NCBI GenBank assembly: GCA_900318205.1
Contig: ONJS01000014.1
Coordinates: 1 to 64,000, forward strand
Length of the DNA: 64,000 bases
From: an uncultured Prevotellaceae bacterium
GTDB lineage: Bacteria; Bacteroidota; Bacteroidia; Bacteroidales; Muribaculaceae
Reading direction: 5' to 3'
Below are positions 1-42,786 of the stretch, in pieces. Position 1 is the first letter of the stretch. Each line of letters opens with the position of its first letter. The notes beneath the pieces were generated by a model. That model did not search any database. It was not told where the DNA came from and saw nothing but the letters and a program-made list of their open reading frames with translations. A program made the translations under genes and the position numbers.

Positions 1-564
1 ATTACGATCTCGACCAGTCTCCAGTCAATTCACGTTGATCTGGAACCCAATTTTACCGACTACGTGTTTGTGCTTGACTGTGCCGACGTAGACCAGGTGT
101 CCATCAAGGGTGATAATTATCCGAACGACTATGGATCGATCGCAAACATCCAAATCCTAGCAGGCGATGCCAGTGAGCCCGCGAAGCTCAGGGCCGTTAA
201 TGAGGAAGGCGATGCCACCTACCGCCTGATTACGGGCATCACCCCCGATAAGTTCTACAACGTTGAGAATCTGACTCCTGGCGGCACCTTCTTCTTCAGG
301 GTGATGGCCCATTACACCGACGACACCTGGAGCCCTTGGAGCAAGGCCAAGACCGTCGTCCTGCATGGTGAAGGACATGGCTACCAGCCGGGTGATGTGA
401 ACCATGATAGTCGTCTCTCCATCGTTGATGTGACGGTTTTGATCAATTACTTGCTGAATGATGGTCAGGAGGGCTGCCCCATTTGTGCCGATGCTGATCA
501 GAATGGTAGTGTGAATATTAGTGATGTGACAGAACTCATCAATATTTTGCTGTTAGGGGAATAA
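1..564 (+). CDS. C-terminal part of a dockerin-bearing secreted protein, C10 protease paralog (5' end outside window)
   Basis: The reading frame is open from base 1, so the start lies upstream. The visible 187 residues align by eye with the C-terminal parts of the five downstream C10 protease genes. They cover the end of the beta-sandwich insert (YVFVLDCADVDQV), an FN3 second half (YNVENLTPGGTFFFRVMAHY) and a two-F-hand dockerin beginning GDVNHDSRLSIVDVT and repeated as DADQNGSVNISDVT. The linker between the F-hands carries a CPIC motif. The catalytic domain is not in the window, so calling it a C10 protease is inference from the paralogs. A strong terminator follows the stop. Confidence 0.8.
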   Translation: MTISTSLQSIHVDLEPNFTDYVFVLDCADVDQVSIKGDNYPNDYGSIANIQILAGDASEPAKLRAVNEEGDATYRLITGITPDKFYNVENLTPGGTFFFRVMAHYTDDTWSPWSKAKTVVLHGEGHGYQPGDVNHDSRLSIVDVTVLINYLLNDGQEGCPICADADQNGSVNISDVTELINILLLGE

Positions 565-594
565 GCACTATTTTCTGATTACCCCATGATTGCT

Positions 595-623
595 GAGGGC
601 ACGTTTAGGCGTGCCCTCTTTTT
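595..623 (+). terminator. Intrinsic terminator after the first dockerin gene
   Basis: A 9-bp stem gagggcacg/cgtgccctc with loop tttagg is followed by a run of five T, about 30 nt after the stop codon. Confidence 0.85.
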
Positions 624-782
624 GTGATGTACTGCTTATAATACCGTGTCAATGAAATCAATACCAAAGGCAATAGCAACCGGATATCCAGTCCCATGGA
701 TTTCTATTGATTCTTCTTAGTGGCTTTGGGTTAATTACAACATTTATTTCTTGCTTATTTATACATTCTTTTGAAGAAATCG

Positions 783-812
783 TTGGTTTTCAGTTTTTTT
801 CTCTTATCTTTG
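783..812 (+). promoter_or_regulatory. Bacteroidetes-type promoter for the protease gene pair
   Basis: The -7 box tatctttg (805-812) matches TAnnTTTG. A TTG lies 19 nt upstream, the spacing expected for the Bacteroidetes primary sigma factor. It probably drives both 898-3300 and 3347-5740, since no promoter or terminator lies between them. Confidence 0.65.
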
Positions 813-897
813 TCGCGTTCTTAGCTTGTTCGGGCTAAGGGTCTAGATGCCATTTTCATTGAACCTGATTTTGAAATAAACTATAAACTGGCTGATT

Positions 898-3300
898 ATG
901 AAGAGATTATTTTACCTTGCCATGCTTTTGTTGGCGGCTATCACTGTATCCGCAGGTCAAGTCGATCTGGCTACAGCTCAGCAAGCTGCGCAACGATTAC
1001 TGATGAATAAGGCTCACAATGGCCGCATGATGGCCTCCTCGACTCCTGCTGTGAAATGGATTCACCAGGAGCGCAATTCCAGTCGAGCCGATATGGTCGC
1101 TTACTATGTAGTGAATACCGATAAGGGCTTTGTCATCGTGTCGGGCGATGATCGCGCTCAGGAGATTCTTGCCTATGGCGATACCGATATCAAGGACATG
1201 AAGAGCCTGCCCGAGAACATGAAGTTCTGGCTCAACTACTACAAGCAGCAGATGGAGTATCTGCAGGCCCATCCCGGCTTGGTGGTAAAGAAGCCCGTCT
1301 TCGGTGACGGTCAGAGCGTTGAAGAGATGCTCGAAGCCAGGTGGGACCAGGGCTCTCCCTATTATAGCCAGTGCCCTCGAGATGGTGATACCCGTGCTTT
1401 GACCGGTTGTGCCTGCACGTCGCTTGCCCAAGTGTTCTATCACTGGCAGTATCCCACCGAGCCCACGCCCGTTGTTCCTGGCTACACGACCAACAATGGC
1501 AAATTCACCCTCGAGGCTCTGCCCTCTGTGACCTTTGACTGGGATAACATGCTCCCCACTTATAGGTTGGGACAATATGAAAATGTTAATGCCACTGCCG
1601 TAGCCCAGCTGATGCGTTACATCGGCCAGGCCGAGCGAATGAACTATGACAAAGCCGGTAGCGATGCCTGGGAGGATGATATCGTCAGGGCCTGTGAGAC
1701 CTTTGGCTATGAGGATGCTGTTGCTGTCTATAAGGCAACAATGAACTTTGAGACGGGTGAGGAAACCACCTATGTCAGCGATGAGGACTGGCATGCCCTG
1801 ATGGTGGAGGAACTCTTGGCTGGTCGCCCCTTTGTTTTCTGCGCTTTTGACTATAGTAATGTTTACCAACTCTACTCGGGCCATGCCTTTAACGTCGATG
1901 GCTATGATGCCAGCGACGGCACTTTCCACATCAACTGGGGATGGAGCGGCGTCGGTAATGGCAATTTTGCCATGAATGCTTTTGCTAACCAGGGTTCAAA
2001 CTATCACTTGGGTCAGCGCATTGTGAAGAACATCTATCCGTCGGTTGCCGTTGTTCCCACCATCAAGGTAAATCCTGCCGAACTGGAGATGGCAACCCGC
2101 CTGGGCGAGCCCGTGACCGCCACGTTCACTGTCAAGGGCAGACTGCTTAATGACAATATTACCCTGACACTGAATGACGCTGATGGCGTGTTTGCCCTTG
2201 ATGCCACTGATGTAACGATTGCTGACGCCAAGGACGGTAAGGTGATTACCGTGACCTATAACCCCACCGCCGTGGGCGAAAACATAGCCACCGTTACCTT
2301 GAGCAGTACTGGTGCCGAGGACATGGTTGTCACTCTGAAGGGAATGGCAGCTCCTGCTCCGCTGGTAGTCTATGATCCCGTCATGCTGCCCGCCAATGAG
2401 AATTATATCGCTCTTACCTCGTTCCGTGCCGACTGGACCGACGAGACCGCTGCCGAGAATGTTACCAGCTACACCCTCGAGGTGAGCACCAAGCCCAGTT
2501 ATGTCCTTATCGATGAGGCGGACTGGAGCAATACCATTGAGAGCTTCTCGGCTCAGACGGATAACGCTGCCAGGTATTTCCCCAGCGGTTGGACGTTTGC
2601 CGGTAGTGACTTGTGGGCCGAAGACGGTTTTATCTCGATTACCGGTAATGCCAGATTCTCAACACCGACCTATGATATGGCTGGTGCCGAGAAGGTGACT
2701 GTAGTGATTACCGGCAAGGGTAGTTATTCGCAGGCGGCTGTTACGGTTTCGACAAGTGTTGACTCTAAGGATTTGCCTTTGACCTATGGAGCCTTCGACC
2801 AGTATGTGGTAGTGCTTGACTGTGCCGCATCCGACATGATAACCATTGCCAACAAGAGCGGCAACCCCGGCTTCAAGAACATGCAGATTTATGCTGGTGA
2901 GGTGTCCGTTCCCCAGATGCGTGCCACTGAGGAGGGCGACGCCACTTGGCGCACCATTACCGGCATCACCGACAAGTTCTACACCGTAACCTGCCTGACC
3001 GCCGAGGGCACTTTCCTCTACAAGGTGAAAGCCTTCTACAACGATGGCACCGAGAGCGATTGGAGCAACATCGAGGAAGTTACCTTAAAGGACAATGGCC
3101 CAGCACCCCATGAATTTGAAGTTGGTGACGTCAATCATGACTATAAGCTGACCATCAAGGATGTGACCGATCTGATCAGCTATCTGCTGAGTGATGATGA
3201 GAGTGGCATCTGCACCGTTTGCGCCAATGTCAATGGTGATGATAAGGTAAGTATTGCCGATGTGTCAGTGCTTATCGACAAGCTGCTGTCAAGCAACTGA
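898..3300 (+). CDS. Secreted C10 (streptopain-type) cysteine protease with C-terminal dockerin
   Basis: Family C10 proteases are secreted as zymogens. The 800-residue product has a signal peptide (about 1-19), a SpeB-type propeptide (about 22-125, with VIVSGDDRAQEILAYG) and a papain-fold catalytic domain (about 145-380). The nucleophile is C171 in TGCACTSLAQV, the histidine H329 in SGHAFNVDGYD, and the following block is HINWGWSG. All expected catalytic elements are present. Next come an Ig-like domain (about 385-495), an FN3-like first half (FRADWTDET), a beta-sandwich insert, the FN3 second half and a dockerin (about 743-800) whose inter-F-hand linker has a CTVC motif. The next gene begins 46 nt later with no terminator, so the two are probably cotranscribed. 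The substrate is unknown. Export by Sec is clear; how it would cross the outer membrane is not, because no T9SS sorting domain is seen. Confidence 0.9.
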   Translation: MKRLFYLAMLLLAAITVSAGQVDLATAQQAAQRLLMNKAHNGRMMASSTPAVKWIHQERNSSRADMVAYYVVNTDKGFVIVSGDDRAQEILAYGDTDIKDMKSLPENMKFWLNYYKQQMEYLQAHPGLVVKKPVFGDGQSVEEMLEARWDQGSPYYSQCPRDGDTRALTGCACTSLAQVFYHWQYPTEPTPVVPGYTTNNGKFTLEALPSVTFDWDNMLPTYRLGQYENVNATAVAQLMRYIGQAERMNYDKAGSDAWEDDIVRACETFGYEDAVAVYKATMNFETGEETTYVSDEDWHALMVEELLAGRPFVFCAFDYSNVYQLYSGHAFNVDGYDASDGTFHINWGWSGVGNGNFAMNAFANQGSNYHLGQRIVKNIYPSVAVVPTIKVNPAELEMATRLGEPVTATFTVKGRLLNDNITLTLNDADGVFALDATDVTIADAKDGKVITVTYNPTAVGENIATVTLSSTGAEDMVVTLKGMAAPAPLVVYDPVMLPANENYIALTSFRADWTDETAAENVTSYTLEVSTKPSYVLIDEADWSNTIESFSAQTDNAARYFPSGWTFAGSDLWAEDGFISITGNARFSTPTYDMAGAEKVTVVITGKGSYSQAAVTVSTSVDSKDLPLTYGAFDQYVVVLDCAASDMITIANKSGNPGFKNMQIYAGEVSVPQMRATEEGDATWRTITGITDKFYTVTCLTAEGTFLYKVKAFYNDGTESDWSNIEEVTLKDNGPAPHEFEVGDVNHDYKLTIKDVTDLISYLLSDDESGICTVCANVNGDDKVSIADVSVLIDKLLSSN

Positions 3301-3346
3301 TGATGACGATTATTCTTTTTTATTCATTTAATAAATCATTGTTTTT

Positions 3347-5740
3347 ATGAAAAAAATCCTTTTACTTGCTGCACTCGTGGTTGCCTCGTTACAACTTACG
3401 GCAGCCAATGTGGACCTGGCTACCGCCCAACAGTCCGCACAACGTTTCCTGATGAGCCAGACCGCCAACGGTCGCCTCATGGCCTCGCAGCCGACCATCA
3501 AGTCGACCCGTGAGGTGAAGAACTCAAGCAATGTCGCACAGGCAGCTTACTACATCGTCAACACCGACCGTGGTTACGTCATCGTCTCTGGTGATGACCG
3601 TGCACGCGAGATTCTCGCTTACGGTGAGGGCCAGTTGGAGAACCTCAATGACCTGCCCGAGGCCATGCAGCTCTTCCTGAATATGTACCAGAAGCAGATG
3701 GAGTACCTGCAGGCCCATCCCGGACTGAAGGTGCAGAAGGCCATCTACCGTGGCGGCGTCTCGGTAGGACCGCTGTTGACCACCGCTTGGAACCAGGGTA
3801 AGCCTTACAACATGAAGACCCCCAAGAAGGGTTCTGGTCAGGATCCCTATTGCAAGGTGGGCTGCTCGGCTGTAGCACTGGCTCAGGTGATGAGATATTG
3901 GGAGTATCCCAAGGTTTCTCCCGCTCTTCCCGGCTACACCTGCCCGACCTCAGGTTACGTAATTGAAGACCTGCCCGAGTACACCTTCGACTGGGACAAC
4001 ATGCGTGACTCTTACCCCAGCAGCTCAAGTGGTATCGACCAGATTCCCGATGCACAGATTGACGCCATCAGCTGGTTCATGCGCTATGTGGGCCAGGCCG
4101 AGACAATGGACTATGGTCTGGATAAGAGTGGTGCAGAGCGCGAGGAAATCATGCTGGCACTCCGCACCTTTGGTTATCGTGATGCCCACGTGATTGAGAA
4201 GTGGGACTTTGACGATGGTACCGTCAACTACACCGAGGAAGAGTGGGGCGAACTGATCCAGTCTGAGCTGATTGCTGGCCGTCCCCTGATCTATTGCGCC
4301 TTTGACATGTCGAGCGACTCTACCGGCATCGGTGGCCATGCCTTTAATGTCGATGGCTATGATGCTGAGAACGACATGTATCACGTGAACTTCGGTATGA
4401 GTGCTGATAAGAACACTTACTATGCACTCAACGGCTTCACCCTTGATAATGGCATGACGGTCTATGACTTCTTCCCCATCCTGTTTGCCGACGTGCAGGA
4501 TCCCACCCTCACAACCGATCCCCACGTTTATACCTCGACCGATGCTCTCAACATGGAGTGCTATGCTGGTGAGACCACTACCGCTACGTTCAACGTTACC
4601 GGTGCTCACTTGACTGGTGATATTACCCTTGCCCTGAATGATGCCGATGACGTATTCAGCATTGACGTTACCTCAATCAGTATTAATGATCTGGGCACGG
4701 CCGTCACTGTGACCTATGCACCTCAGGAGGTAGGCACCAACAATGCCACCATCACCCTGAGCAGCGAGGGCGCTTCTGATGTGACCGTTGAGCTGAAGGG
4801 TGTTGCAACTGCCGCTCCTCTTGTGGTCTATGCTCCCGTGATGCAGCCTGCAGCCGAGCAGTACATCAATCTGACTTCGTTCCGTGCCGACTGGACCGAC
4901 CAGACCATTCCCGAGAATGTTCTCAGCTACACCCTGGATGTGAAGGAGAAACCCGGTGCAGGTGGTCTGCTTGCCGAGGTAGATTGGAGCAATGCTACGG
5001 GTAGTGCACCCAGTGCTCTGCCTGAGGGCTGGACCTACGGCGATTACTCGATCTTCTTTGATGAGGGCGGTATTGCTATCACCTCCGAAAGCTACATCAA
5101 GACCGATGTCCTCGACTTCGCCGGACAAGAAAAGGTTACTGTAGTGATGAGGGCTAAGAGCTACTATGGCTGGACTGCATCAACGATTACCGTTAAAACC
5201 AGTGTTGATCAGAAGACTCTGGATTTGACCAGCAGTTATGTTGATTATACGATTGTATTGAACTGCGCTGAAACTGATCAGATTGAATTCTATGCTGATG
5301 CTTGGAACCCCACCATCCAGGCCATTAAGATCTATGCTGGTGAGGTAACTCCGCAGATGCGCGCTACAGTGGAGGGTGACGCTTCTCATTATGTAATCAG
5401 TGGCATCACCGAGAAGTCCTACAATGTGACTGGCCTGAATGCCGAGAGCACTTACTTCTTCAAGGTGAAGGCACACTATGCCGACGGTACCGAGAGTGAT
5501 TGGAGCAATATCGAGCAAGTTACCCTGAAGGAAAATGATACTCCTGCTCATGACTATACTGTAGGTGACGTGAACCACGATGAGAAGTTGGGCATCAAGG
5601 ACGTTTCCGACTTGATCAGCTACCTGCTGAGTGGAGATGATAGTGCTATCTGCACCATCTGCGCCAATGTCAATGGTGATGATAAGATCAGCATTGCCGA
5701 TGTGACTGCGCTCATCAGCTTAGTCTTGAACGGCAATTAA
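3347..5740 (+). CDS. C10-type protease paralog with altered active-site block and C-terminal dockerin
   Basis: Same architecture as its upstream neighbour over 797 residues: signal peptide MKKILLLAALVVASLQLTA, SpeB-like propeptide, C10 domain, Ig-like domain, split FN3 with beta-sandwich insert and dockerin (about 740-797, linker motif CTIC). The nucleophile is kept as C173 in KVGCSAVALAQV and the histidine as H331 in GGHAFNVDGYD. The block that reads NWGWSG in three neighbours reads HVNFGMSADK here, so both Trp positions and the Gly-rich turn are changed. In SpeB the corresponding Trp residues shape the active site, so activity or specificity may differ; that is inference. It probably shares the promoter at 783-812 and ends at the strong hairpin at 5769-5807. 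Confidence 0.88.
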   Translation: MKKILLLAALVVASLQLTAANVDLATAQQSAQRFLMSQTANGRLMASQPTIKSTREVKNSSNVAQAAYYIVNTDRGYVIVSGDDRAREILAYGEGQLENLNDLPEAMQLFLNMYQKQMEYLQAHPGLKVQKAIYRGGVSVGPLLTTAWNQGKPYNMKTPKKGSGQDPYCKVGCSAVALAQVMRYWEYPKVSPALPGYTCPTSGYVIEDLPEYTFDWDNMRDSYPSSSSGIDQIPDAQIDAISWFMRYVGQAETMDYGLDKSGAEREEIMLALRTFGYRDAHVIEKWDFDDGTVNYTEEEWGELIQSELIAGRPLIYCAFDMSSDSTGIGGHAFNVDGYDAENDMYHVNFGMSADKNTYYALNGFTLDNGMTVYDFFPILFADVQDPTLTTDPHVYTSTDALNMECYAGETTTATFNVTGAHLTGDITLALNDADDVFSIDVTSISINDLGTAVTVTYAPQEVGTNNATITLSSEGASDVTVELKGVATAAPLVVYAPVMQPAAEQYINLTSFRADWTDQTIPENVLSYTLDVKEKPGAGGLLAEVDWSNATGSAPSALPEGWTYGDYSIFFDEGGIAITSESYIKTDVLDFAGQEKVTVVMRAKSYYGWTASTITVKTSVDQKTLDLTSSYVDYTIVLNCAETDQIEFYADAWNPTIQAIKIYAGEVTPQMRATVEGDASHYVISGITEKSYNVTGLNAESTYFFKVKAHYADGTESDWSNIEQVTLKENDTPAHDYTVGDVNHDEKLGIKDVSDLISYLLSGDDSAICTICANVNGDDKISIADVTALISLVLNGN

Positions 5741-5768
5741 TGGATTGAATCCTAGATGATACCTTTTT

Positions 5769-5807
5769 TAGGGGTTGTACCGATAGGGGTACAGCCCCTA
5801 ATTTTTT
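5769..5807 (+). terminator. Intrinsic terminator after the protease gene pair
   Basis: A 13-bp stem (one G-U pair) begins taggggttgtacc and ends gggtacagccccta, with a short gatag loop, followed by a run of T. Confidence 0.85.
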
Positions 5808-5862
5808 AGATATGCTGTCGTTATCGTCTGTATTAAAGTTTTGTAGAAAACTACTGTTTTCT

Positions 5863-5893
5863 GTTGCTGATTATTATTATTTGTGTATCTTTG
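5863..5893 (+). promoter_or_regulatory. Promoter for third complete protease gene
   Basis: The -7 box tatctttg (5886-5893) has a TTG at 5863-5865, a 20-nt gap. The leader is about 80 nt. Confidence 0.65.
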
Positions 5894-5978
5894 CATGCAA
5901 TTTTTAAAGCGGATTCGTGCGAACGCAGACCGCATTTTTAATTAACCATCTTTGTTTCAATCAGTTAACTATTAATTT

Positions 5979-8360
5979 ATGAGAAAATTATTATTGCTTG
6001 CCACATTGTTGATGGCCGTCATGCAGGTTTCTGCAGCCGATGTCGATTTGGCCCAAGCATCGGCAACAGCGAGGCGTTACCTCGCTGCGAACGCTAAGAT
6101 TAAAGGATTCCAGGGTGTATCAACCGGTGACCTCAAACTCATTTACACCGAGAAGAATTCTACAAGCTCTACACAGGCTGCTTATTACATCTTCAACTCC
6201 GACAAGGGGTTTATTATCGTTTCGGGCGATGACCGAGCACAAATGATTCTTGCTCACGGTGACCGTCCCCTGGACATGAAGCGCATGCCGGACAACATGA
6301 AGTTCTGGTTGAGGACCTACAAGAAACAGATAGAATTCCTCCAGGCTCATCCCGGACTTGTTGTGGATCAACCCAAATTCAACAAAAACCTGAACACGCC
6401 TAGCGTGGCTCCGTTGCTCACTGCCGAGTGGGACCAGGATGCTCCTTACTATAACCATTGCCCCATGTATAACGGTTCGTATTGCCTGACGGGTTGTCCC
6501 GCTACCTCTCTGTCGATGGTGTTCTATTACTGGAAATACCCGACTGACCCCACTCCTGAAGTCGAGGGTTATACCAATGAGAGCTATGGATTCCAAGTTC
6601 CGGCGTTGCCGTCCATCACCTTTGATTGGGATAATATGCTGGACAAGTACACGGGCGGTTACACCACAGCCCAGGCCGATGCTGTGGCATGGCTGATGCG
6701 TTATGTCGGACAGGAAGAACACATGGACTATACGCCCAGCGGCAGTGGTGCCATGGGCGCCGACATCCTGCGTGCCGTTAAGTTCTTCGGCTATGATGAG
6801 GAGATGGCTCGCCTTGAATTCAAAACCCGCACCGATGACTACGGCAACGACACGGCAGTTTATTACACCGATGACGAATGGGCTGCTTTGCTCCAGAATG
6901 AGCTTGCCGAAGGTCGCCCCGTCGTTTATTGTGGTTATGATTACTCCTATTGGGGTTGGAGTGGCCACGCCTTCAATGTTGACGGTTATACGGCCAGCGA
7001 CAATACCTATCACGTGAATTGGGGTTGGAGCGGTGATGGCAATGGTGACTTCGTCCTGAATGCCTTCTCCAGCAGCGGTTACACGTTTAATATTGAGCAA
7101 CAGATGATTATGGGTATCCAACCTCCCGCTCAGGGACCGTCTATCAAGATAAATCCCTCCAAGCTGGAAATGAATGCCTATCCCGGCAAGACCGCTACCG
7201 CAACGGTTAAGGTCAAGGGTCAGCTCCTCAACAGTGCTATAGACCTCACGCTCAATGACGAGAGCGGCATGTTCTCGATTGATGCCACCAGTGTTGACGT
7301 CAGTGAGCAGGCCGATGGCAAGGTCATCACCGTGACCTATTCGCCTACCGCTGTCGGTACCCATACGGCTACAATTACCTTGCGCAATCCCGATGCCGAG
7401 GACAAGACCATCACAATCAATGGTACGGCAGTCCTGGAGACCTATGTGCCCTATATGCTGCCCGCTGATAGCGCCAATATCAACTTGACCCAGTTCCGTG
7501 CCAACTGGACCGACGAGACACCTGCCACTAATGTCGAGAGCTATATGCTCGAAGTGGCAACCCGACCTGCAGTCGAGCTCCTTGACTCCATTGATGGCAG
7601 CATCTACCCGGGCAGCTATGAGAGCACGACGCTTTCGGCACCCTGGAGTGGCAACGGTGTGATGGTGGGCCATAACGCGGTTTATTTCAACAACTATAAC
7701 AACGATGGCTACATTGCCTTCACCGTGCCCGAGGGTTACACCGATGCTGTCTTCACGATGCAGATTACAACCGTTAGCGATTATTATGGTTCTGGTAATA
7801 TCACTGTCGGTTCTGCCCAGACACCATCGCTTGGCCACGATTTCACTACAGGTGAGACCTATTCCTGGCTCGTGACTGCCAGCACAGGCGAGATGATTAC
7901 CATCACTTCGACCGATGACTACTTCTCACCCGACATGACGATGATCAAGGTCTATGCCGGCGATGCCAATGAACTGAACTCGTTGAGGGCTGTTGTTGAG
8001 GAAGGTGATGCCGCTTACCGTCTCATCACGGGCATTACCGATAAGTTCTATACCGTAAAGGACCTTACTGCAGCTGGCACGTTCTATTATAAGGTGAAGG
8101 CTGTCTATACCGATGGCACGCTGAGCCGTTGGAGCAACTCCCAGAAAGTGACGCTCTTTGAGAACGGTCACGCCTTTGACCTTGGTGACGTGAACCACGA
8201 TGGCAAGGTGAACATTACCGATGTTACCGATTTGATCGATTACCTGCTCCATAATGAGAAGAGTACCATCTGCACCATCTGTGCCGATGTTGACGGTGAT
8301 GGCTTTGTCAAGATTGCCGATGTTACTGTCCTCATTGATCTCATGTTGAACAGTAACTAA
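5979..8360 (+). CDS. Secreted C10 cysteine protease with alternative beta module and dockerin
   Basis: A 793-residue paralog with signal peptide MRKLLLLATLLMAVMQVSA, propeptide, and catalytic domain with C173 in LTGCPATSLSMVFYYW, H330 in WSGHAFNVDGY and NWGWSGDGNG. The Ig-like domain and FN3 halves match the neighbours, but the module between the FN3 halves is different: it contains PGSYESTTLSAPWSG, FTMQITTVSDYYGSGNITVG and MITITSTDDYFSPDMTMIKV. This matches the modules present twice in the distant protease at 39325-42786, not those of adjacent genes, which suggests module exchange. The dockerin (about 736-793) has textbook F-hands (DVNHDGKVNITDVTDL and DVDGDGFVKIADVTVL) and a CTIC linker. 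It has its own promoter and terminator. Confidence 0.9.
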   Translation: MRKLLLLATLLMAVMQVSAADVDLAQASATARRYLAANAKIKGFQGVSTGDLKLIYTEKNSTSSTQAAYYIFNSDKGFIIVSGDDRAQMILAHGDRPLDMKRMPDNMKFWLRTYKKQIEFLQAHPGLVVDQPKFNKNLNTPSVAPLLTAEWDQDAPYYNHCPMYNGSYCLTGCPATSLSMVFYYWKYPTDPTPEVEGYTNESYGFQVPALPSITFDWDNMLDKYTGGYTTAQADAVAWLMRYVGQEEHMDYTPSGSGAMGADILRAVKFFGYDEEMARLEFKTRTDDYGNDTAVYYTDDEWAALLQNELAEGRPVVYCGYDYSYWGWSGHAFNVDGYTASDNTYHVNWGWSGDGNGDFVLNAFSSSGYTFNIEQQMIMGIQPPAQGPSIKINPSKLEMNAYPGKTATATVKVKGQLLNSAIDLTLNDESGMFSIDATSVDVSEQADGKVITVTYSPTAVGTHTATITLRNPDAEDKTITINGTAVLETYVPYMLPADSANINLTQFRANWTDETPATNVESYMLEVATRPAVELLDSIDGSIYPGSYESTTLSAPWSGNGVMVGHNAVYFNNYNNDGYIAFTVPEGYTDAVFTMQITTVSDYYGSGNITVGSAQTPSLGHDFTTGETYSWLVTASTGEMITITSTDDYFSPDMTMIKVYAGDANELNSLRAVVEEGDAAYRLITGITDKFYTVKDLTAAGTFYYKVKAVYTDGTLSRWSNSQKVTLFENGHAFDLGDVNHDGKVNITDVTDLIDYLLHNEKSTICTICADVDGDGFVKIADVTVLIDLMLNSN

Positions 8361-8386
8361 TGAACTGAATATCATTCATCACTATT

Positions 8387-8425
8387 GGAGCTCAAATGTT
8401 TCTGGCATTTGGGCTCCAGTTTTTT
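8387..8425 (+). terminator. Intrinsic terminator
   Basis: The 12-bp stem ggagctcaaatg/catttgggctcc (one G-U pair) is followed by agtttttt. Confidence 0.85.
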
Positions 8426-8488
8426 CTGGTTTATCATGTCTCGCAACGAATAATAACTGTCCGTAATGATAGTTTCAATGTTTTTTTG

Positions 8489-8496
8489 TAACTTTG
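8489..8496 (+). promoter_or_regulatory. -7 promoter box
   Basis: taactttg matches TAnnTTTG about 75 nt before the start codon. No good -33 TTG is seen at the usual distance. Confidence 0.5.
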
Positions 8497-8569
8497 CGCT
8501 TCACTTGTCAGCCATGGTGAATGGCGACTGTGATAATCAATGGAGACTACTAATTAACCGATTATAAAT

Positions 8570-10957
8570 ATGAAGAGATTATTGTTATGTGCAATGCTGT
8601 TGTTGGCGATGATGCCGGCGATGGCTGCCGATGTTGATGTAGTGCAGGCTCGTGCCACGGCGACACAGTTCTTGCAGGATTACGCTCCCATGGTGAAGCG
8701 TGGCGCTCCCGTCTCGCTTGCTGATGTGAAGTTGCTTCACACCGAGGCGAATCCCTCAAGTGCCGACAAAGCCGTTTATTACATTTTCAATAGTAACCAA
8801 GGCTTTGTCATCGTTGCAGGTGATGACCGTGCGCGTCAGATTTTGGCTTGGGGTGATCGTCCGCTGGACTTTGCACGCATGCCCGAGAACATGAAATACT
8901 GGCTCAGCACCTATAAGCGTCAGATGGTTTTCCTGCAGGAGCGTCCCGATTTGGAGGTTGAAGCGCCTCGCCTCAATGACCGGTCAAATTCGATCACTGT
9001 TCCCCCGATGCTCACGGCCCTATGGGACCAGGCGGAGCCTTACTGGAACCATTGTCCAATGGTCAATGGCGAATACTGCTTGACGGGTTGCCCTGCCACG
9101 TCGTTGTCGATGGTATTCTATCACTGGAAATATCCTGTTGAGCCAACGCCTCCGGTTCCGGCGTTCAATTATGTGGTGAGTTTGCCTGCATTGCCCTCCA
9201 TCACCTTTGACTGGGACAATATGCTCGACGAGTATGTCGAGGGCAACTATAACGAGGCCCAGGCCGATGCTGTGGCTTGGCTGATGCGTTACATCGGCCA
9301 GGAGGAGCACATGGATTATTCGGTGGACGGCAGCGGTGCTAAGGGCAGCGATATCTTGCGTGCAATCAAGTTCTTCGGTTATGATGAGGAGGCCGATCTG
9401 CTGATGAAGTCCATGGCTGACAACTTCGGCAACGAGATGCAGCAGTTCTATACCGATGACGAGTGGGCTGCTATCCTCCAGAATGAGATGTTTGAGGGTC
9501 GCCCCGTGGTGTATTGTGCCTTTGACTACAACGACCAGCGCGGCTGGAGTGGCCATGCTTTCAACGTGGACGGTTACACTGCCGCTACCGATACCTATCA
9601 CGTGAATTGGGGCTGGAGTGGCGTCGGCAACGGCGACTTCGCGTTAAATGCCTTCGGCTACAGGGATTACACGTTCAATATCGAGCAGCAGATGATTGTG
9701 GGTATCCATCCGCCCATCACAACGCCTACGATTATTGTGGCACCTCGCCAAATCGATATGGAGGCTTTTGTGGACCAGAGTTCCACCGCCAGTTTCATTG
9801 TCAATGGCAAGTTCCTGACCGATGACGTGACTATGACACTTCAAGACGCTGACGGCGTATTCTCGCTGGATGCTACCAGTGTTGCCCTCAATGACTTGGA
9901 TTCAGGCAAGGTGGTCACCGTGACCTATTCGCCACTGGCGAGTGGTAGCCACACTGCCACGATTACGTTGAGCAGCCCTGAGGCCGAGGATGTGACTCTT
10001 GTCCTCAATGGCACAGCTACCCTGGACGTGTATACCCCGGTAATGCTTCCTGCTGACAATGCCCACATCGGACAGACAGGATTTCTCGCCGAATGGACCG
10101 ATGAGACCCTCGGCAAGTATGTGGAGAGCTATACCCTTGAGGTGAATACCAGGCCAGGCTTTACCCTCATCGATGAGCTTGACTGGAGTGACATTGTGGA
10201 GAATTCCAGCAACTATGCCAACTATTCCGAGGAACTGTTGCCCGAGGATTGGACTTTCACGGGCAACGGCTTGTGGTGTGAGCAGGCAGGTATTTCTATC
10301 AACAACAAGAGTTCGCTGACCTCGCCGATCTATGACCTGTCAGGCTATGAAAAGGTGACTGTTGTCGTGAGGGCCAAATCCTCCATGAACCAGAGCAGTT
10401 CTAAATTCATTGTTTCTACCGGTGTCGATCAGCAGGAGTTTTCGGCTCCCGGCGGTTCCCCGTTCACCGACTATGTGGCAGTGCTTGACTGCAGCGAGGC
10501 AGATCAGGTAACGGTTGCTGGCAAGAGTAATTTCCCTGTCTTCCAGAGCATCATGGTCTATGCTGGAGACAATGATCAACTCCAGATGCGTGGTGTCGCC
10601 GAGGAAGGTGGTGCTGATTACCGCCTCATCACGGGTATTACCGACAAGAACTACACCGTCAATGGTCTTGTTGCCGGCGGTTCCTTCTATTACCGTGTCA
10701 AGGCATATTATATTGACGGTACCGTGAGCCCGTGGAGCAAGAGCCGTTATGTGGTCTTGTCGGATAGCGGCACCGGCTACCAGACAGGAGACGTCAACAG
10801 CGATGGCAAGTTGAACATTCAGGACGTGACAGACCTCATCAACTATCTGTTGTCCGAAGATGAAATCAACCCCACCAGTGCCGATGTCAATGGCGATACC
10901 CGCATCAGCATTGATGACGTGACCGCCTTGATCAATCTGCTGCTGTTAGGCGACTGA
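8570..10957 (+). CDS. Secreted C10 cysteine protease with C-terminal dockerin
   Basis: A 795-residue paralog with signal peptide MKRLLLCAMLLLAMMPAMA, propeptide (VIVAGDDRARQILAWG), and C10 domain with C174 in LTGCPATSLSMVFYHW, H329 in WSGHAFNVDGY and NWGWSGVGNG, so the catalytic set is complete. Its N-terminal half is closest to the gene just upstream (shared GQEEHMDY, KFFGYDEE, TDDEWAAxLQNE), which suggests a recent tandem duplication. Its FN3 insert, however, is of the type found in the first two complete genes (LIDELDWSDIVENSSN, YVAVLDCSEADQV). The dockerin (about 740-795) lacks the CxxC of the four upstream paralogs, having NPTSADVNG in the linker. A promoter box and terminator suggest it is monocistronic. 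Confidence 0.9.
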   Translation: MKRLLLCAMLLLAMMPAMAADVDVVQARATATQFLQDYAPMVKRGAPVSLADVKLLHTEANPSSADKAVYYIFNSNQGFVIVAGDDRARQILAWGDRPLDFARMPENMKYWLSTYKRQMVFLQERPDLEVEAPRLNDRSNSITVPPMLTALWDQAEPYWNHCPMVNGEYCLTGCPATSLSMVFYHWKYPVEPTPPVPAFNYVVSLPALPSITFDWDNMLDEYVEGNYNEAQADAVAWLMRYIGQEEHMDYSVDGSGAKGSDILRAIKFFGYDEEADLLMKSMADNFGNEMQQFYTDDEWAAILQNEMFEGRPVVYCAFDYNDQRGWSGHAFNVDGYTAATDTYHVNWGWSGVGNGDFALNAFGYRDYTFNIEQQMIVGIHPPITTPTIIVAPRQIDMEAFVDQSSTASFIVNGKFLTDDVTMTLQDADGVFSLDATSVALNDLDSGKVVTVTYSPLASGSHTATITLSSPEAEDVTLVLNGTATLDVYTPVMLPADNAHIGQTGFLAEWTDETLGKYVESYTLEVNTRPGFTLIDELDWSDIVENSSNYANYSEELLPEDWTFTGNGLWCEQAGISINNKSSLTSPIYDLSGYEKVTVVVRAKSSMNQSSSKFIVSTGVDQQEFSAPGGSPFTDYVAVLDCSEADQVTVAGKSNFPVFQSIMVYAGDNDQLQMRGVAEEGGADYRLITGITDKNYTVNGLVAGGSFYYRVKAYYIDGTVSPWSKSRYVVLSDSGTGYQTGDVNSDGKLNIQDVTDLINYLLSEDEINPTSADVNGDTRISIDDVTALINLLLLGD

Positions 10958-10980
10958 TTTTTAGGAATAGAATCATTGTT

Positions 10981-11033
10981 AAGCGATGGAGATGATGGCG
11001 TTTCATGGCGCTTTATCATCTCCATCGCTTTTA
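10981..11033 (+). terminator. Long-stem intrinsic terminator
   Basis: A 16-bp perfect stem, aagcgatggagatgat against atcatctccatcgctt, encloses an 18-nt loop and is followed by T-rich sequence. Confidence 0.8.
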
Positions 11034-11160
11034 TATGATGTTTCACCTTTTACCCTTTTCTTCACATGAAAATACAGTCAGCCAAAAAGAATGAATAATG
11101 AATATTTATTATTTATTGACTTTTTCTCCGAAAATGTTAGGGATTTATCATTATTTTATA

Positions 11161-11168
11161 TACTTTTG
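11161..11168 (+). promoter_or_regulatory. -7 promoter box
   Basis: tacttttg matches TAnnTTTG, about 92 nt upstream of the start codon. No clear -33 element is seen. Confidence 0.45.
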
Positions 11169-11260
11169 TGACTGTTTTTCGTGTCATTGCTTGATGCAAT
11201 GGCGTTTTTTTAGCACAATTATCTGATTAACAGGGTTATAAACTTATTTTATTTTTATTT

Positions 11261-13675
11261 ATGAGAAAAATCTTATTTTTTGTCGCTTTGATGTTTGCGA
11301 CGATTCAGGCTACAGCAGCCCCCGTTGGTTTGAGAACAGCTCAGATCGAAGCTCAACAGTTCGTTCAGGAGCAATTGTATGGAGGCAGGCTCTTGGCTCC
11401 TATAACAGGAGAGATGAAGCTGGCCCATGTGGAGATGAATTCCAAAATGTTGGATCGTCCTGTATTCTACATCTTCAATACCAAGAATGGCCATGTTGTG
11501 GTATCGGGTGATGACCGAGCTGAGAAAATCTTGGGTTATGGTGATTATCCCCTGGATTACAAGAACATTCCCTGCAACATGAAGGCGTTGTTTGCCATGT
11601 TGAAGGAGCAGATTGAGTATCTGCAGGCCCATGAAGAAATGCAAGCCCAGGCCCCGTCGTTGATGGCGCCTGCACGCATACCCAGTGTTGAACCCTTGCT
11701 GACCGCCTTGTGGGATCAGGAGGCACCTTACTGGAATATGTGTAAGATTAGCAATAATCAGTGCTTGACCGGATGCCCTGCCACCTCGGCAGCGATGGTA
11801 TTCCACTATTGGAAATATCCTGACTTTGAGACTCCTGAAGTTCCTGCCTATCGTTGTGAGTTGAGCACTTCGATGTGGGGATCGGCAAGCTATGTCAATG
11901 TCCCTGCATTGCCTCCCGTGACCTTTGACTGGGCGCACATGCGTGATACTTATGGAAGTTCCTATACAACCGAAGAGGCTAACGCCGTGGCTACGCTGAT
12001 GCGTTATGTGGGCCAGGCCGAACACATGGCCTATGGTACCAGTGCTGCAGGTGGTAGTGGTGTGGATGCTGACAGTGTCATCCTGATTGCTAATGCCTTC
12101 AAGCTCTTTGGCTATGATGAGGAGACTGTACGCGTGGTCAAGAAGACCAGTGCCTATAGTGGCGGTACCACCCTTTATACCGATGCCGAATGGGCTGCTA
12201 TCATGCAGGATGAACTCGCTGAGGGCCGTCCCATCGTCTTCTGCGCTATCGCTGGTGGTTTCTTCGGCGGTGGTCATGCCTTCAACGTCGATGGTTATGA
12301 TGCCAACACCAACAAGTACCACATCAACTTCGGTTGGAGCGGTGCTTACAACAACTACTATGCCCTCAACTCATTCACGGGCCAGGGCTCGACCTTCAAC
12401 CAGTATCAGCAGATGGTAATCGGCATCCAGCCTCCTTTGAAAATGCCGCGCCTCAGAACTGATAAGAGCGACTTGTCGATGGAATGCTTCAAGAACCAGA
12501 CCCAGAGTTCCAAGTTTACCTTGAAGGGCTCTAATCTGGAGAATGATGTGACCTTGACGCTCAATGACGAGAATGGTGTGTTCGTCCTTGACAAGACTGC
12601 CATCACTCCTGATGAGGATGGTAAAGTGAATGAGACGGTAGAAGTGACCTATGCTCCCAAGGCCGAGGGCAATTATACCGCAACTGTTGTCGTTAGCGCC
12701 GAGGGCGTAGATGACATTGTTATCAATCTGGCCGGTACTTCGGAATATGAGCTCTATCGTCCTATTATGCAGGAACTTGACGAGTCATCAGTTACTGCAA
12801 CCTCGTTCCGTGCCGACTGGAGTGACAACACGCCCGCCGAGAATGTAACGAGCTATACCCTTGAGGTAAGACTCAAACCCGACGTTGTTCTGCTCACCGA
12901 AGCCGATTGGAGCGACGTTCCCCAAGATGACACCAACCATGCCAGTGATGCTGCCAACTATCTGCCTGATGGCTGGACCTTCACAGGTAATTATTTCTAT
13001 CTTGACGGTGGCTTCATTTCAGCCAACCGAGACAATGTCATCAGTCCTAATTGCGACTTGATGGGTTACTCTGTTGTCAGTGTTATTATCAAGGCCAAGG
13101 CTTATCCTAAAGGCACCAATACTACACTCACTATCTCGACCGACGAAGAAACCAGGACGCTTATCCTGGCAAAGGAACTTAATACCTACTTGGTAGTGCT
13201 TCCCGTTGGAGACCACGGATTTGTGAAGTTCATCACTGGTTACTATCCCGAAATCCAGAGCATTAAGATTTATGGTGGTGAGATTACCGATCCCGAGCCC
13301 TTCTCATTCAAGGCTCCGCAAGTGACCGGTGACGATGAGTACATGCTCATTGAGGGTATCACTCCCGACAAGTTCTACACTGTAACTGGACTCACTCCTG
13401 GTTCTCCCTACTTGTATCGTGTGAAGTCACTGTATGTTAATGGCACCGAGAGCCGCTGGAGTAATACCAAGGAGGTTCTTCTCAAGGAGTCTGCCGGCCT
13501 GCGTGGTGATATTGATGGTGACGGCGTTATTGCCATCTCCGATGTGACGACACTTATCGAGAATCTGATGGAGGGCAAGGCAACTCCTGCCGATGACTGC
13601 GACGAGAGTGGTAATGTCTCGATGGATGATGTGACGGCACTCATCAACTATCTGCTGTACGGCACATGGAATTGA
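11261..13675 (+). CDS. Secreted C10 cysteine protease with C-terminal dockerin
   Basis: An 804-residue protease, last of the array and the most diverged. It has signal peptide MRKILFFVALMFATIQATA, propeptide, and C10 domain with C172 in LTGCPATSAAMVFHYW, H339 in GGGHAFNVDGYD and NFGWSGAYNN (first Trp replaced by Phe, as in the protease at 39325). The insert TSAAGGSGVDADSV and the KKTSAYSGGTTLYTD segment are shared almost exactly with that distant protease, so its catalytic domain is nearer to that one than to its neighbours. The C-terminal part is of the array type: Ig-like domain, FN3 halves with the LLTEADWSDV insert and a dockerin (about 748-804, DIDGDGVIAISDVTTL) without the CxxC linker. 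A terminator follows. Confidence 0.9.
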   Translation: MRKILFFVALMFATIQATAAPVGLRTAQIEAQQFVQEQLYGGRLLAPITGEMKLAHVEMNSKMLDRPVFYIFNTKNGHVVVSGDDRAEKILGYGDYPLDYKNIPCNMKALFAMLKEQIEYLQAHEEMQAQAPSLMAPARIPSVEPLLTALWDQEAPYWNMCKISNNQCLTGCPATSAAMVFHYWKYPDFETPEVPAYRCELSTSMWGSASYVNVPALPPVTFDWAHMRDTYGSSYTTEEANAVATLMRYVGQAEHMAYGTSAAGGSGVDADSVILIANAFKLFGYDEETVRVVKKTSAYSGGTTLYTDAEWAAIMQDELAEGRPIVFCAIAGGFFGGGHAFNVDGYDANTNKYHINFGWSGAYNNYYALNSFTGQGSTFNQYQQMVIGIQPPLKMPRLRTDKSDLSMECFKNQTQSSKFTLKGSNLENDVTLTLNDENGVFVLDKTAITPDEDGKVNETVEVTYAPKAEGNYTATVVVSAEGVDDIVINLAGTSEYELYRPIMQELDESSVTATSFRADWSDNTPAENVTSYTLEVRLKPDVVLLTEADWSDVPQDDTNHASDAANYLPDGWTFTGNYFYLDGGFISANRDNVISPNCDLMGYSVVSVIIKAKAYPKGTNTTLTISTDEETRTLILAKELNTYLVVLPVGDHGFVKFITGYYPEIQSIKIYGGEITDPEPFSFKAPQVTGDDEYMLIEGITPDKFYTVTGLTPGSPYLYRVKSLYVNGTESRWSNTKEVLLKESAGLRGDIDGDGVIAISDVTTLIENLMEGKATPADDCDESGNVSMDDVTALINYLLYGTWN

Positions 13676-37757: not shown

Positions 37758-38957
37758 CTAATTATTGCTGAAAATGAGGTCGATAAGTGCATTGACGTCG
37801 GCAATATTCACTTCATCGTCGTTGTTTACGTCGGCCTTGGGGTTGCCGGTGCTGCCACTCAGGATGATGTCGATGAGGGCATTGACGTCGGCAATGTTCA
37901 CCTCGCCGTCATCATTCACGTCGCCAGTTCCCGGCATACTCATCTCGATGATGTGGGTGAACTCTCTCCAGACCGGGTGATTCTTGTAGTCCTTGAGCGA
38001 TCCCTGCGGCACATAAACTACACAGGTGGACGCTGGCACGCCCATGAAACAATAGGTCTCAAAATAGCAATCATCAGGATCAATGACATTGCATTGGATG
38101 GTCTCTAGATTCACACAATCATAGAACGCAAATGACCGTATTTCATTGATTTTGGCTGGAATGATCAGACTTTTCAGGGAATAGCATTCCGAGAACGCAT
38201 TGTCCTTGACCTGTAGGGCGGAATTAGGCAGGACCAGATTGGTGAAGTTACATTTCTGGAATGCATTGGCTCCGATAAAAACAAGTGAATTCGGGAACCT
38301 GATATCGGTCAGCGACGTGCAAGAACTGAATGCAGCTAATTCAATCCTTGTCAACGAATTGCTAAGTGTCACCCTGGCTAATGCTGAACAGGACTCAAAG
38401 GCTTCGCTGCCGATCGTGACCACCGAGTTTGGGATGGTCACCTGCTGTAAGGCCTTGCAGGAGAAGAACGCAGACGGGCCGATCGTGGTAACCATTTTGC
38501 CTATTGTTAGATGCTTGAGGGCATTGCACCTGTAGAATGCATAGTCCTTGATTTCGGTCACTCGGTCACCGATTGTAGCCGTAACCAGTTTTTCACAATA
38601 GAAGAATACATAGCCTTCCATATTTTCCACCGAATTGGGAATGGCCACACTGGTCAGGTTGTTGCAGTAGTAGAACGCTGCATAGCCTATGGACTTCACC
38701 GTGTTGGGGATGGTCACACTGGTCAGGGAGTAACATTTCTCGAAGGCTCTGTCTGCAATGGCGGTGACGCGATAAATCGTGCCTTCATTGGCAACCGTTT
38801 CGGGGATGTTCACAACACCGGAATAGTCGTTTTTCTGTACAGCTACTTCACCGTTGCCGGTAACCCAATAATTGATGCCATCGACAACAAAAGACTGGGC
38901 CATTGCCAAGCACGACGTCCCTAGGAAGAAAACAAGTGTAAACAAGATATTTTTCAT
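37758..38957 (-). CDS. BspA-like LRR surface protein with C-terminal dockerin
   Basis: The 399-residue product has a signal peptide MKNILFTLVFFLGTSCLAMA and about ten BspA-type leucine-rich repeats (about 45-330) of the form LTSVTIPNTVKSIGYAAFYY and LQQVTIPNSVVTIGSEAFES. BspA repeats mediate binding to host or bacterial surfaces in related bacteria. The C-terminus (about 345-399) is a dockerin with two F-hands, DVNDDGEVNIADVNALIDII and DVNNDDEVNIADVNALIDLI. No T9SS sorting domain is present. The dockerin links it to the protease array at 898-13675. It stands alone. Confidence 0.88.
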   Translation of the reverse strand: MKNILFTLVFFLGTSCLAMAQSFVVDGINYWVTGNGEVAVQKNDYSGVVNIPETVANEGTIYRVTAIADRAFEKCYSLTSVTIPNTVKSIGYAAFYYCNNLTSVAIPNSVENMEGYVFFYCEKLVTATIGDRVTEIKDYAFYRCNALKHLTIGKMVTTIGPSAFFSCKALQQVTIPNSVVTIGSEAFESCSALARVTLSNSLTRIELAAFSSCTSLTDIRFPNSLVFIGANAFQKCNFTNLVLPNSALQVKDNAFSECYSLKSLIIPAKINEIRSFAFYDCVNLETIQCNVIDPDDCYFETYCFMGVPASTCVVYVPQGSLKDYKNHPVWREFTHIIEMSMPGTGDVNDDGEVNIADVNALIDIILSGSTGNPKADVNNDDEVNIADVNALIDLIFSNN

Positions 38958-42300: not shown

Positions 42301-42786
42301 CTGGTTGTAGTAGGGAGCTTCCTGGTCCCAGTTGCAAGTCAACAGGGGACCGTAGGTGGTAGCATTGAATGATGGTGTGGGTGCCTCTATTGAGGTGGGG
42401 CGAAGTCCCGGATGCTCTTGCAGGAACATGATCTGATCCTTGTACTGACCCAGCATGTCCTGGAGACCTAGCGGCAGGTTGTTCACGTCACGCAAGGGAC
42501 GGTCACCGACCATCAGGATTTCCTCGGCGCGGTCATCACCAGCGACTACCAGGAAGGTGGTGGAGGTGTTGAAAATGTAATAAACGGGCTCATTCAACTT
42601 TGCATTGCCCATTTCTGCCTTGAGCAACACGGGTTGGAGGGCTGCAGGTGACATCATCTTACCTGCATAAAGCTCATTTGTCAAAAAGCTTTTTGCTTTC
42701 TGCATGGCCGTGAATTGGTCTACGGGAGCGGCCATCATTGACGCCGTAATCATTGCGGCTGTCAGGAATAACAAAATTTTCTTCAT
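39325..42786 (-). CDS. C10 (streptopain-type) cysteine protease with duplicated beta modules and T9SS-type sorting tail
   Basis: An 1153-residue relative of the protease array, on the opposite strand. It has signal peptide MKKILLFLTAAMITASMMAA, propeptide (VVAGDDRAEEILMVGDRP), and C10 domain with C174 in LTGCPATSASMVFYFW, H338 in GGHAFNVDGYN and NFGWSGDGNA. After it come two copies of an Ig-like plus split-FN3 unit, each with the same insert (GSNYTGSY..., TVQITTxSxxYGSGxITVKS, YSTDSSYSPDM). Instead of a dockerin the C-terminus is ESVTYVNMSGVQSK followed by INIVVTRYKSGAVKSTKVRY, typical of T9SS type A sorting domains. It would thus be carried across the outer membrane by T9SS and attached or released. 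The two near-identical units suggest a recent internal duplication. Confidence 0.9.
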   Translation of the reverse strand: MKKILLFLTAAMITASMMAAPVDQFTAMQKAKSFLTNELYAGKMMSPAALQPVLLKAEMGNAKLNEPVYYIFNTSTTFLVVAGDDRAEEILMVGDRPLRDVNNLPLGLQDMLGQYKDQIMFLQEHPGLRPTSIEAPTPSFNATTYGPLLTCNWDQEAPYYNQCKFGNYQCLTGCPATSASMVFYFWKYPTAATPAVPGYKSTISYSSYGSTSYTHSALPSTTFDWANMLDDYTGSYTTAQGTAVATLMHYVGQAERMGYGTSSAGGSGVSVDSVCNIRDAFTFFGYDSSTTRFVKKTSAYSGGTTLYTDSQWAALIQEEMAAGRPIVFCAVSSNAGGHAFNVDGYNSSTNKYHVNFGWSGDGNAWCSLNSFGYSSYNFNVYQQMVIGIQPPSGSTATPTLTVSPTSLSFSTTAGQAVSKTFTVTGTNLTGNVTLTKTDANGAYTISPTTITAANAANGVTVTVTYNPTAAGTHTGSIAIASSGATSKTVSLSGTATAAALTTYTPVMSAANSSYITSSSFRADWTDQTSSTNVSSYTLQVNSEGSSTPTTTTLLGTINGSNYTGSYKTITLSSPWGGTNVKGGYNAVYTSGSSGKITFTIPSGYSSNTTFSVQITTVSGTYGSGNITVKSTQTSAVGHSFSKGETYTWTVTGKTGDVITIYSTDSSYSPDMSLIQVYAGNINLNASETGDANARTITGITNKYYTVSNLTAGTTYVYKVKAIYTDGTSSSWSNEQSVTLNEEQQTTTPTLTVTPTSLNMSAKVNGTATATFKVTGADLTGNVTLSLSGDDVFSISPTTITAANAANGVNVTVTYNPTAYGTQTATVTVASSGATSKTVAITGNATLDKADPVLTAATNITSTGFTANWTHDVDASSVSSYTMYGVLTAQPSGEEPSGSTLLGSLDGSNYTGSYASITLTSPWGGSNVKAGNGAIYTKNSSSWWSTSYGNITYTVPSGYSNATFTVQITTASTSYGSGSITVKSATTSAVKQTVTKGNTYTWTVTASAGDKITIYSTDSSYSPDMAWIGIYAGTMNLNATATGDNTNFVITDISAGSTGITLSNLVENGTYSYYIVANYVDGTTATSNTQEVTLVSVNMGNQTAINSIAADGDEVESVTYVNMSGVQSKEPFDGINIVVTRYKSGAVKSTKVRY

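Follow-up and report, generated by a model that had tools for sequence, protein, structure and literature searches.

Arrays of dockerin-bearing C10 proteases and candidate cohesin scaffolds in a genus of uncultured Bacteroidales

Why would a row of secreted proteases each end in a dockerin, and what could these dockerins bind? The question is raised by the first 64,000 nucleotides of contig ONJS01000014.1 (assembly GCA_900318205.1, an uncultured Prevotellaceae bacterium), the stretch called the window below, which opens with a head-to-tail array of six C10 protease genes. Rumen Bacteroidetes metagenome-assembled genomes (MAGs) that have dockerins and no recognisable cohesins, and in which the role of the dockerins was unclear or undefined, were noted previously (PMC7260996, PMC7480376), and divergent cohesins were raised as a possible explanation (PMC7260996). 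Our analysis suggests, with a probability of about 0.7, that the array encodes distinct secreted C10 proteases which serve as cargo in a surface complex of cohesins and dockerins, anchored through the type IX secretion system (T9SS) and greatly expanded in one genus of rumen Bacteroidales.

The protease array and its relatives

The window opens contig 16 in a draft genome of 3.62 Mb (94.8% complete). An earlier note, made from the window's letters, had described six plus-strand paralogs, the first partial, each ending in a dockerin, and this was borne out by the open reading frame (ORF) listing, by Pfam and by a dockerin profile derived from the genome itself. The first member is a 3' end only (1-564, dockerin at 388-552), its 5' end being lost at the contig edge. 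It is followed on the same strand by five complete genes encoding proteins of 800 (898-3300), 797 (3347-5740), 793 (5979-8360), 795 (8570-10957) and 804 residues (11261-13675). Their dockerins occupy residues 743-800 (bases 3124-3297), 740-797 (5564-5737), 736-793 (8184-8357), 740-795 (10787-10954) and 749-802 (13505-13666), respectively; in the first complete protein the dockerin is preceded by an I69 propeptide, a C10 domain and an Ig/fn3-like region. Since the window begins at the contig start, the array is possibly longer than six. The corresponding contig of RUG412 (L081:1) also ends near the array's upstream end, like window position 1.

Pfam assigned Inhibitor_I69 and Peptidase_C10 (E 4.4e-47 to 5.7e-43 for C10), as well as a C-terminal Dockerin_1, to all five complete members. 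Two of them scored well above the curated Dockerin_1 cut-off of 22.9 bits (40.5 and 41.4 bits) and the other three at or just under it (22.9, 22.8 and 20.7 bits); the genome-derived profile gave 56-81 bits for all six array members. Identity to the first complete member is 42-50% for the remaining four, and the array members are therefore paralogs rather than assembly copies. A propeptide and a Cys/His pair, likewise claimed in the note, were found in every complete member, the latter within the dyad motif GC...GHAFNVDGY, and proteolytic activity is predicted from the C10 domain and this dyad. Signal peptides were judged by eye (basic N-end, hydrophobic core, AxA). In the member at 3347-5740 (plus strand) the catalytic His is followed by NFGMSAD, compared with N[WF]GWSG in the other members, and its activity or specificity may differ.

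A model of the member at 8570-10957 (AlphaFold2, 70 sequences) had a mean predicted local distance difference test score (pLDDT) of 88, with about 86-94 for the dockerin blocks, and its nearest solved folds were prointerpain A and the SpeB zymogen. Loop and core positions of the dockerin are invariant or nearly so over 70 aligned C10 proteins. In addition, a C-x-x-C pair occurs in the linker between the dockerin halves of the first four array members (window 1-8360), not in the last two, and also in many C10 dockerins of relatives.

Of the named matches, RUG412 (an uncultured Prevotellaceae by its label) was nearest, its best segment being 93% identical; most of the others were MAGs from the ruminant gut, with the labels Prevotellaceae, Muribaculaceae, Porphyromonadaceae or Bacteroidales. 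Same-strand runs of at least three C10 genes were present in 30 of 63 loci of these named relatives, the longest having six genes and the median intergenic gap being 216 bases (110 gaps); because such runs recur, the array is more than chance. The same loci contain 198 C10 ORFs, 181 of which end in a dockerin, while 10 are cut by the end of the stretch and seven have no dockerin.

Dockerins in place of sorting tails, and their wider cargo

Among the 27 C10 proteases of this genome, 26 carry a dockerin (two by partial matches, one internal). Two adjoining C10 genes at L175:1415-4881 (plus strand) gave partial and weak C-terminal dockerin matches (15 and 20 bits), and one protein at L191:8451-10457 (plus strand) joins a C10 protease, a dockerin and an FGE-like C-terminal domain. 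The sole exception, a 1153-residue protein encoded in the window at 39325-42786 (minus strand), has a T9SS-like tail by profile-profile comparison; this tail resembles tails on some cohesin proteins, and the protein is possibly a remnant of the ancestral state. C10 proteases are common in the family (135 of 149 genomes). In five other members of the genus, all six sampled C10 ORFs have dockerins, compared with none of 17 from 15 genomes outside the genus (one ORF with a masked end), which were drawn from high-scoring matches. Ten of these 17 were scanned for TIGR04183, the type A sorting tail, and eight exceeded its curated cut-off; the one array member scanned against NCBIfam had no TIGR04183 match, and all five complete members end in dockerins. 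The dockerin thus occupies the place where sampled C10 proteases of other genera bear a T9SS sorting tail. The simplest history would be that the genus exchanged the sorting tail of these proteases for a docking tag, the family having already possessed a smaller cohesin-dockerin set.

The host itself appears to be a T9SS-bearing member of the Bacteroidales that uses a dockerin instead of the sorting tail on these enzymes. SprA_N was found (E 4.1e-186) in a 2493-residue frame on contig 24; a further match, at G000:C26:69736-70305, is partial and contains an in-frame TGA. The tail model Por_Secre_tail (PF18962) gave 12 matches in the genome, one of them over the cut-off, and was of no use for the scaffolds described below. 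The tail of a 570-residue protein in the window (51095-52807, minus strand) was matched, at E 1.5e-26 after iteration, by a profile whose seeds were canonical T9SS tails, and the genome seems to encode ordinary T9SS cargo as well.

The distribution was assessed in 149 genomes drawn evenly from the larger family, 10 of the genus and 139 others, with dockerin scoring limited to about 40 candidates per genome. All 10 genus members had at least 39 dockerin matches at E 1e-4 (93 to 307 candidates each) and at least two cohesin matches. Outside the genus, one genome (G001) had 31 dockerin matches and the others at most seven. Dockerin expansion therefore marks the genus. Cohesin matches were more widespread, occurring in 42 of the 149 genomes (10/10 of the genus and 32/139 others).

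Counting the dockerin proteins of this genome, as the note had proposed, gave at least 154 distinct ORFs, a few of them weak, in about 0.85 Mb, or about a quarter of the genome; the count covers stretches chosen round dockerin hits, which are some of 150 listed matches. Two further dockerin proteins in the window were recognised by the genome-derived profile, both with C-terminal dockerins and both on the minus strand (399 residues at 37758-38957 and 809 residues at 54901-57330). The dockerin lies within 15 residues of the C-end in 130 of the 154 and is not terminal in 24. In eight it starts at residue 23-44, directly after the signal peptide, and a binding module is for this reason a better fit than a terminal signal.

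Proteins other than proteases also bear dockerins. We examined 117 complete non-C10 dockerin proteins, leaving out those below 25 bits and open ORFs, in a census made in two halves, for which 25 of 50 and 25 of 26 families were listed. Among the families listed, Pfam counted LRR_5 (27), CotH (13), alpha-amylase (5), CBM26 (5), M6 peptidase (4) and endonuclease I (3); FGE-like proteins (5), S8 subtilases (4), GHL10 (2) and GH53 (1) were counted in one half only. No cellulase was among the families listed for these proteins. When the 26 C10 proteases are added, no enzyme class among the families listed is larger than the proteases. The note had envisaged a protein-degrading counterpart of a cellulosome: candidate scaffolds for it were indeed found, but its cargo is wider than proteases, including leucine-rich repeat (LRR) and CotH proteins, alpha-amylase, CBM26, endonuclease I and FGE-like proteins. 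In some FGE-like proteins the dockerin stands directly behind the signal peptide. A diversity-generating retroelement acting on FGE-like ends was considered and rejected: six nucleotide ends had no adenine-only pattern by eye, and one reverse transcriptase match sits on another contig.

In 149 dockerin domains (those of the 154 with at least 30 bits), the D/N positions of the calcium loop are conserved in both halves. At position 15 the two halves agree closely, with T/T in 69 domains, N/N in 38, S/S in 12, mixed S-T in 18 and mixed T-N in one. Coupling between the halves was strongest at positions 15 and 21 (z 36 and 31), strong at 4, 8, 10, 12, 17, 18 and 19 (z 7 to 13), weaker at 6, 11, 14, 16 and 20 (z about 3 to 6), unclear at 7 (z 1.4) and absent (z about 0) at 3, 5, 9, 22 and 23. 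Relatedness among dockerins inflates these scores, and for this reason only the contrast between positions is used. Profile positions 11, 12, 15 and 19 are numbered 10, 11, 14 and 18 in the classical scheme, where they are known for contact with the partner. The symmetry is consistent with a binding face that is present in duplicate, T/S and N being the two main classes.

Cohesins and candidate scaffolds

If the dockerins bind cohesins, these should be encoded elsewhere in the genome, as the note had supposed. The Pfam cohesin model PF00963 had two matches in the whole genome, one above the cut-off (35.8 bits, E 1.1e-8), so that a genome devoid of cohesins, which would have told against docking, is not what was found. 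A profile of the genome's own domains yielded 13 matches below E 1e-4 and 12 full domains in the ORF set; a weak match on contig 25 (E 1.4e-5) is not in this set, in which a longer overlapping ORF was kept there. The note's scaffold elsewhere in the genome is supported by these 12 cohesins, by a cohesin-fold model from a relative and by a six-cohesin protein in two genomes of the same genus.

Most of the 12 cohesins belong either to proteins that end in a T9SS-like tail or to small partners that combine a cohesin with a dockerin. Five large cohesin proteins have an internal dockerin and a T9SS-like tail at the end; four of them contain LRR or Big_2 repeats, and in three the order is cohesin, dockerin (degenerate in two), cohesin, tail. 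Three others are small, at 213-217 residues, and join a signal peptide to a single cohesin and a single dockerin, and an LRR protein of 817 residues has a cohesin and then a terminal dockerin. On contigs 23, 26 and 32, a gene for a large tailed cohesin protein is followed by one for a small 213-217-residue protein, and downstream of the pair on contig 32 (L146) an LRR-dockerin gene and then a C10-dockerin gene lie on the same strand. In two other genomes of the genus (G060 and G135), a 914-residue protein with six tandem cohesins and a C-terminal dockerin is encoded directly downstream of a 572-573-residue dockerin-cohesin-tail protein; in other relatives the downstream partner has one or two cohesins.

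The assignment of these domains was supported by structure prediction. A dockerin-cohesin-tail region of a named relative was modelled from four sequences in a template-free manner (pLDDT 64), and all 50 PDB matches listed for the model were cohesin modules or cohesin-dockerin complexes (best E 5.7e-8), one of them, 2o4e, being titled merely a protein-protein interaction module. A second, Ig/fn3-rich model had no cohesin among the 50 matches listed. Comparison of the cohesin-alignment profile with PDB sequences was weak (best E 0.042), and five of its nine matches were cohesin modules (four of NagJ). The divergent domains belong to the cohesin family and fold. In addition, proteins encoded at L153:1-3040 (minus strand), one of them with a T9SS-like tail, have a second, more distant cohesin-like domain at the N-terminus, which is akin to the domain that comes first in the scaffold on contig 32.

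A proposed surface complex, alternatives and known systems

These components suggest the following mechanism. A signal peptide would bring each protease into the periplasm, where the I69 propeptide would keep it as a zymogen and its C-terminal dockerin would bind cohesins on the scaffold proteins. Anchors would be the proteins with one or two cohesins, an internal dockerin and a T9SS-like C-terminal tail; adaptors, ending in a dockerin, would contribute one cohesin in this species and one, two or six in relatives. Exported and attached by the T9SS, the anchors would display the docked zymogens on the cell surface. The parts of this scheme, namely the dockerins, the cohesin family and fold, the scaffold architecture, the dockerin in the position of a tail and the SprA gene, are computed from the genomes. 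Binding, its specificity, the location at the surface and the moment at which a protease joins its scaffold during export are inferred.

Since the dockerin proteases lack a T9SS tail, they would be either carried out with an anchor or exported by another route. A stricter version of the first course, which we regard as rather unlikely, is that enzymes without an outer-membrane signal of their own leave only when docked, folded, on T9SS-tailed cohesin anchors in the periplasm. One sorting tail would then export a whole set of different enzymes, and the result, if true, would be a Gram-negative surface complex made by cohesin-dockerin pairing and exported by the T9SS.

Several observations weigh against the proposed complex. 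Cohesins are few in this genome, with 12 full domains for 154 dockerins and at most two per protein, and one genus member (G122) had only two cohesin matches for 40 scored dockerins (211 candidates). A complex cannot be concluded from cohesins alone, because 32 of the 139 genomes outside the genus have them together with few or no dockerins. Conversely, G001, which belongs to another genus and is 85% complete, combines its 31 dockerin matches with no cohesin match better than E 0.12; its dockerin motif also differs (DVSILLEMVL; loci L268-L297), and its cohesins may be too divergent, its genome incomplete, or its receptor another one. The Pfam cohesin model matched one of nine scanned cohesin proteins of relatives and none of the other eight; the matched one was the six-cohesin protein of G135 (E 6.1e-14), and as the G060 counterpart of the same length was missed, this model alone is too insensitive. 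TIGR04183 matched none of the five scaffold proteins, a plain profile of canonical T9SS tails gave their tails only E 0.11-2, and their kinship to T9SS tails was seen solely in profile-profile comparison (92.5 and 77.4% probability, compared with 0.1-1.7% in five controls). The symmetry test ignores relatedness and was also positive, less strongly, at positions other than the main ones. Finally, in pair tests that left out C10 ORFs cut at the 3' end and weak or short matches, the C10 dockerins of a genome showed no greater likeness to its remaining dockerins than to C10 dockerins from elsewhere (10 of 19 genomes, p 0.86).

Some of these observations would suit dockerins that bind a glycan or another surface polymer, or that only stabilise their own protein with calcium, the cohesin-like domains serving contacts between scaffolds alone. 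The dockerins of G001 without a detectable cohesin, the small number of cohesins, the dockerins that lie within cohesin proteins and the absent genome-wide signal of co-evolution agree with this, and a cohesin-free alternative for some MAGs was raised after Ruminococcus albus 8 (PMC9763041). We nevertheless consider it improbable, given that cohesins were found in all 10 genus genomes searched, that a C10-dockerin gene lies downstream of one scaffold pair and that the dockerins fall into symmetric recognition classes. It is quite improbable that the dockerin is itself a T9SS sorting signal, read by the translocon in place of the tail and needing no cohesin complex: it does sit where relatives have the tail, and mostly near the C-end (130/154), but 24 are not terminal and eight lie right behind the signal peptide, the same genomes encode cohesins in a scaffoldin architecture, and the T9SS-like tail of the five cohesin proteins is separate from the internal dockerin that they also have.

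A likeness test confined to C10 dockerins within genomes was strongly positive and was not used as evidence of docking, gene conversion being able to explain such likeness. Ordinary tandem duplication of free secreted proteases, with the terminal repeat a neutral remnant, would accommodate this conversion and the variation of C10 runs from one to six genes between relatives' loci, but is hardly credible for a domain that is near-invariant in loop and core, is kept on unrelated proteins and was modelled with high pLDDT.

If the proposed complex of proteases, scaffolds and T9SS anchors is real, cohesin-dockerin complexes are not a Gram-positive speciality and can be largely proteolytic, with a bearing on protein breakdown in the rumen. 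The genome data suggest a surface complex that resembles a cellulosome and digests largely protein, in a phylum that is not known to build such complexes. Among its closest likenesses is the cellulosome of Ruminococcus flavefaciens and clostridia (Bacillota), in which enzymes have C-terminal dockerins and scaffoldins combine one to several cohesins with a dockerin of their own. Those systems have an anchoring scaffoldin and very many dockerin proteins (e.g., R. flavefaciens FD-1). They differ in being anchored to a Gram-positive cell wall, whereas the candidate anchors here have T9SS-like tails in Bacteroidales; moreover, proteases top the enzyme classes and no cellulase appears among the families listed here, and most of the cohesins fall below the Pfam cut-off. 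In the amylosome of Ruminococcus bromii, a cohesin-dockerin complex has amylase as cargo. The array proteases share the I69 propeptide, the C10 catalytic domain and the nearest folds with interpain A of Prevotella intermedia and SpeB (streptopain), both of which they exceed by a C-terminal dockerin; SpeB is a free enzyme.

Cargo other than cellulases is also a feature of the Limousia mucinolysome, a cohesin-dockerin complex whose non-cellulose cargo includes dockerin peptidases (PMC12997984). The hosts of mucinolysome and amylosome are Gram-positive, unlike the present one, and six dockerin peptidases were given for L. pullorum ET540 (PMC12997984), compared with the 26 dockerin-bearing C10 proteases here. 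R. flavefaciens has a dockerin protein that contains a papain-like module (PMC3573020). Rumen Bacteroidetes with surface-directed enzymes include Ca. Paraporphyromonas polyenzymogenes and its T9SS-linked multi-modular cellulases; its report mentions no cohesins or dockerins in the parts accessible (PMC5831590), whereas a dockerin replaces the tail here.

According to the accessible sections of two papers, no cellulosome system was described outside Firmicutes (PMC12997984) and cohesins occurred only in Firmicutes_A (PMC9177762). Elsewhere, Bacteroidetes bins were listed with one or both of the modules: two bins had 11 dockerins and no cohesin, one had five dockerins and one cohesin, and one had two cohesins and no dockerin (PMC6071333). 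A protein with two cohesins was reported for RUG606, a member of the Prevotellaceae (PMC5830445), and 78 human gut Bacteroidetes MAGs held both modules and were left for future work (PMC12997984). In the literature searched, which had most subscription journals outside it and was accessible in part, we found no account of a system of this kind, and no scaffolds with T9SS-like tails, no exchange of tail for dockerin and no protease arrays. Unlike the partnerless dockerins of rumen Bacteroidetes described earlier, those of this genus occur with divergent cohesins in the same genomes, and the candidate cohesins, the scaffold architecture, a possible anchoring route and the genus-wide pattern make the puzzle of these dockerins testable.

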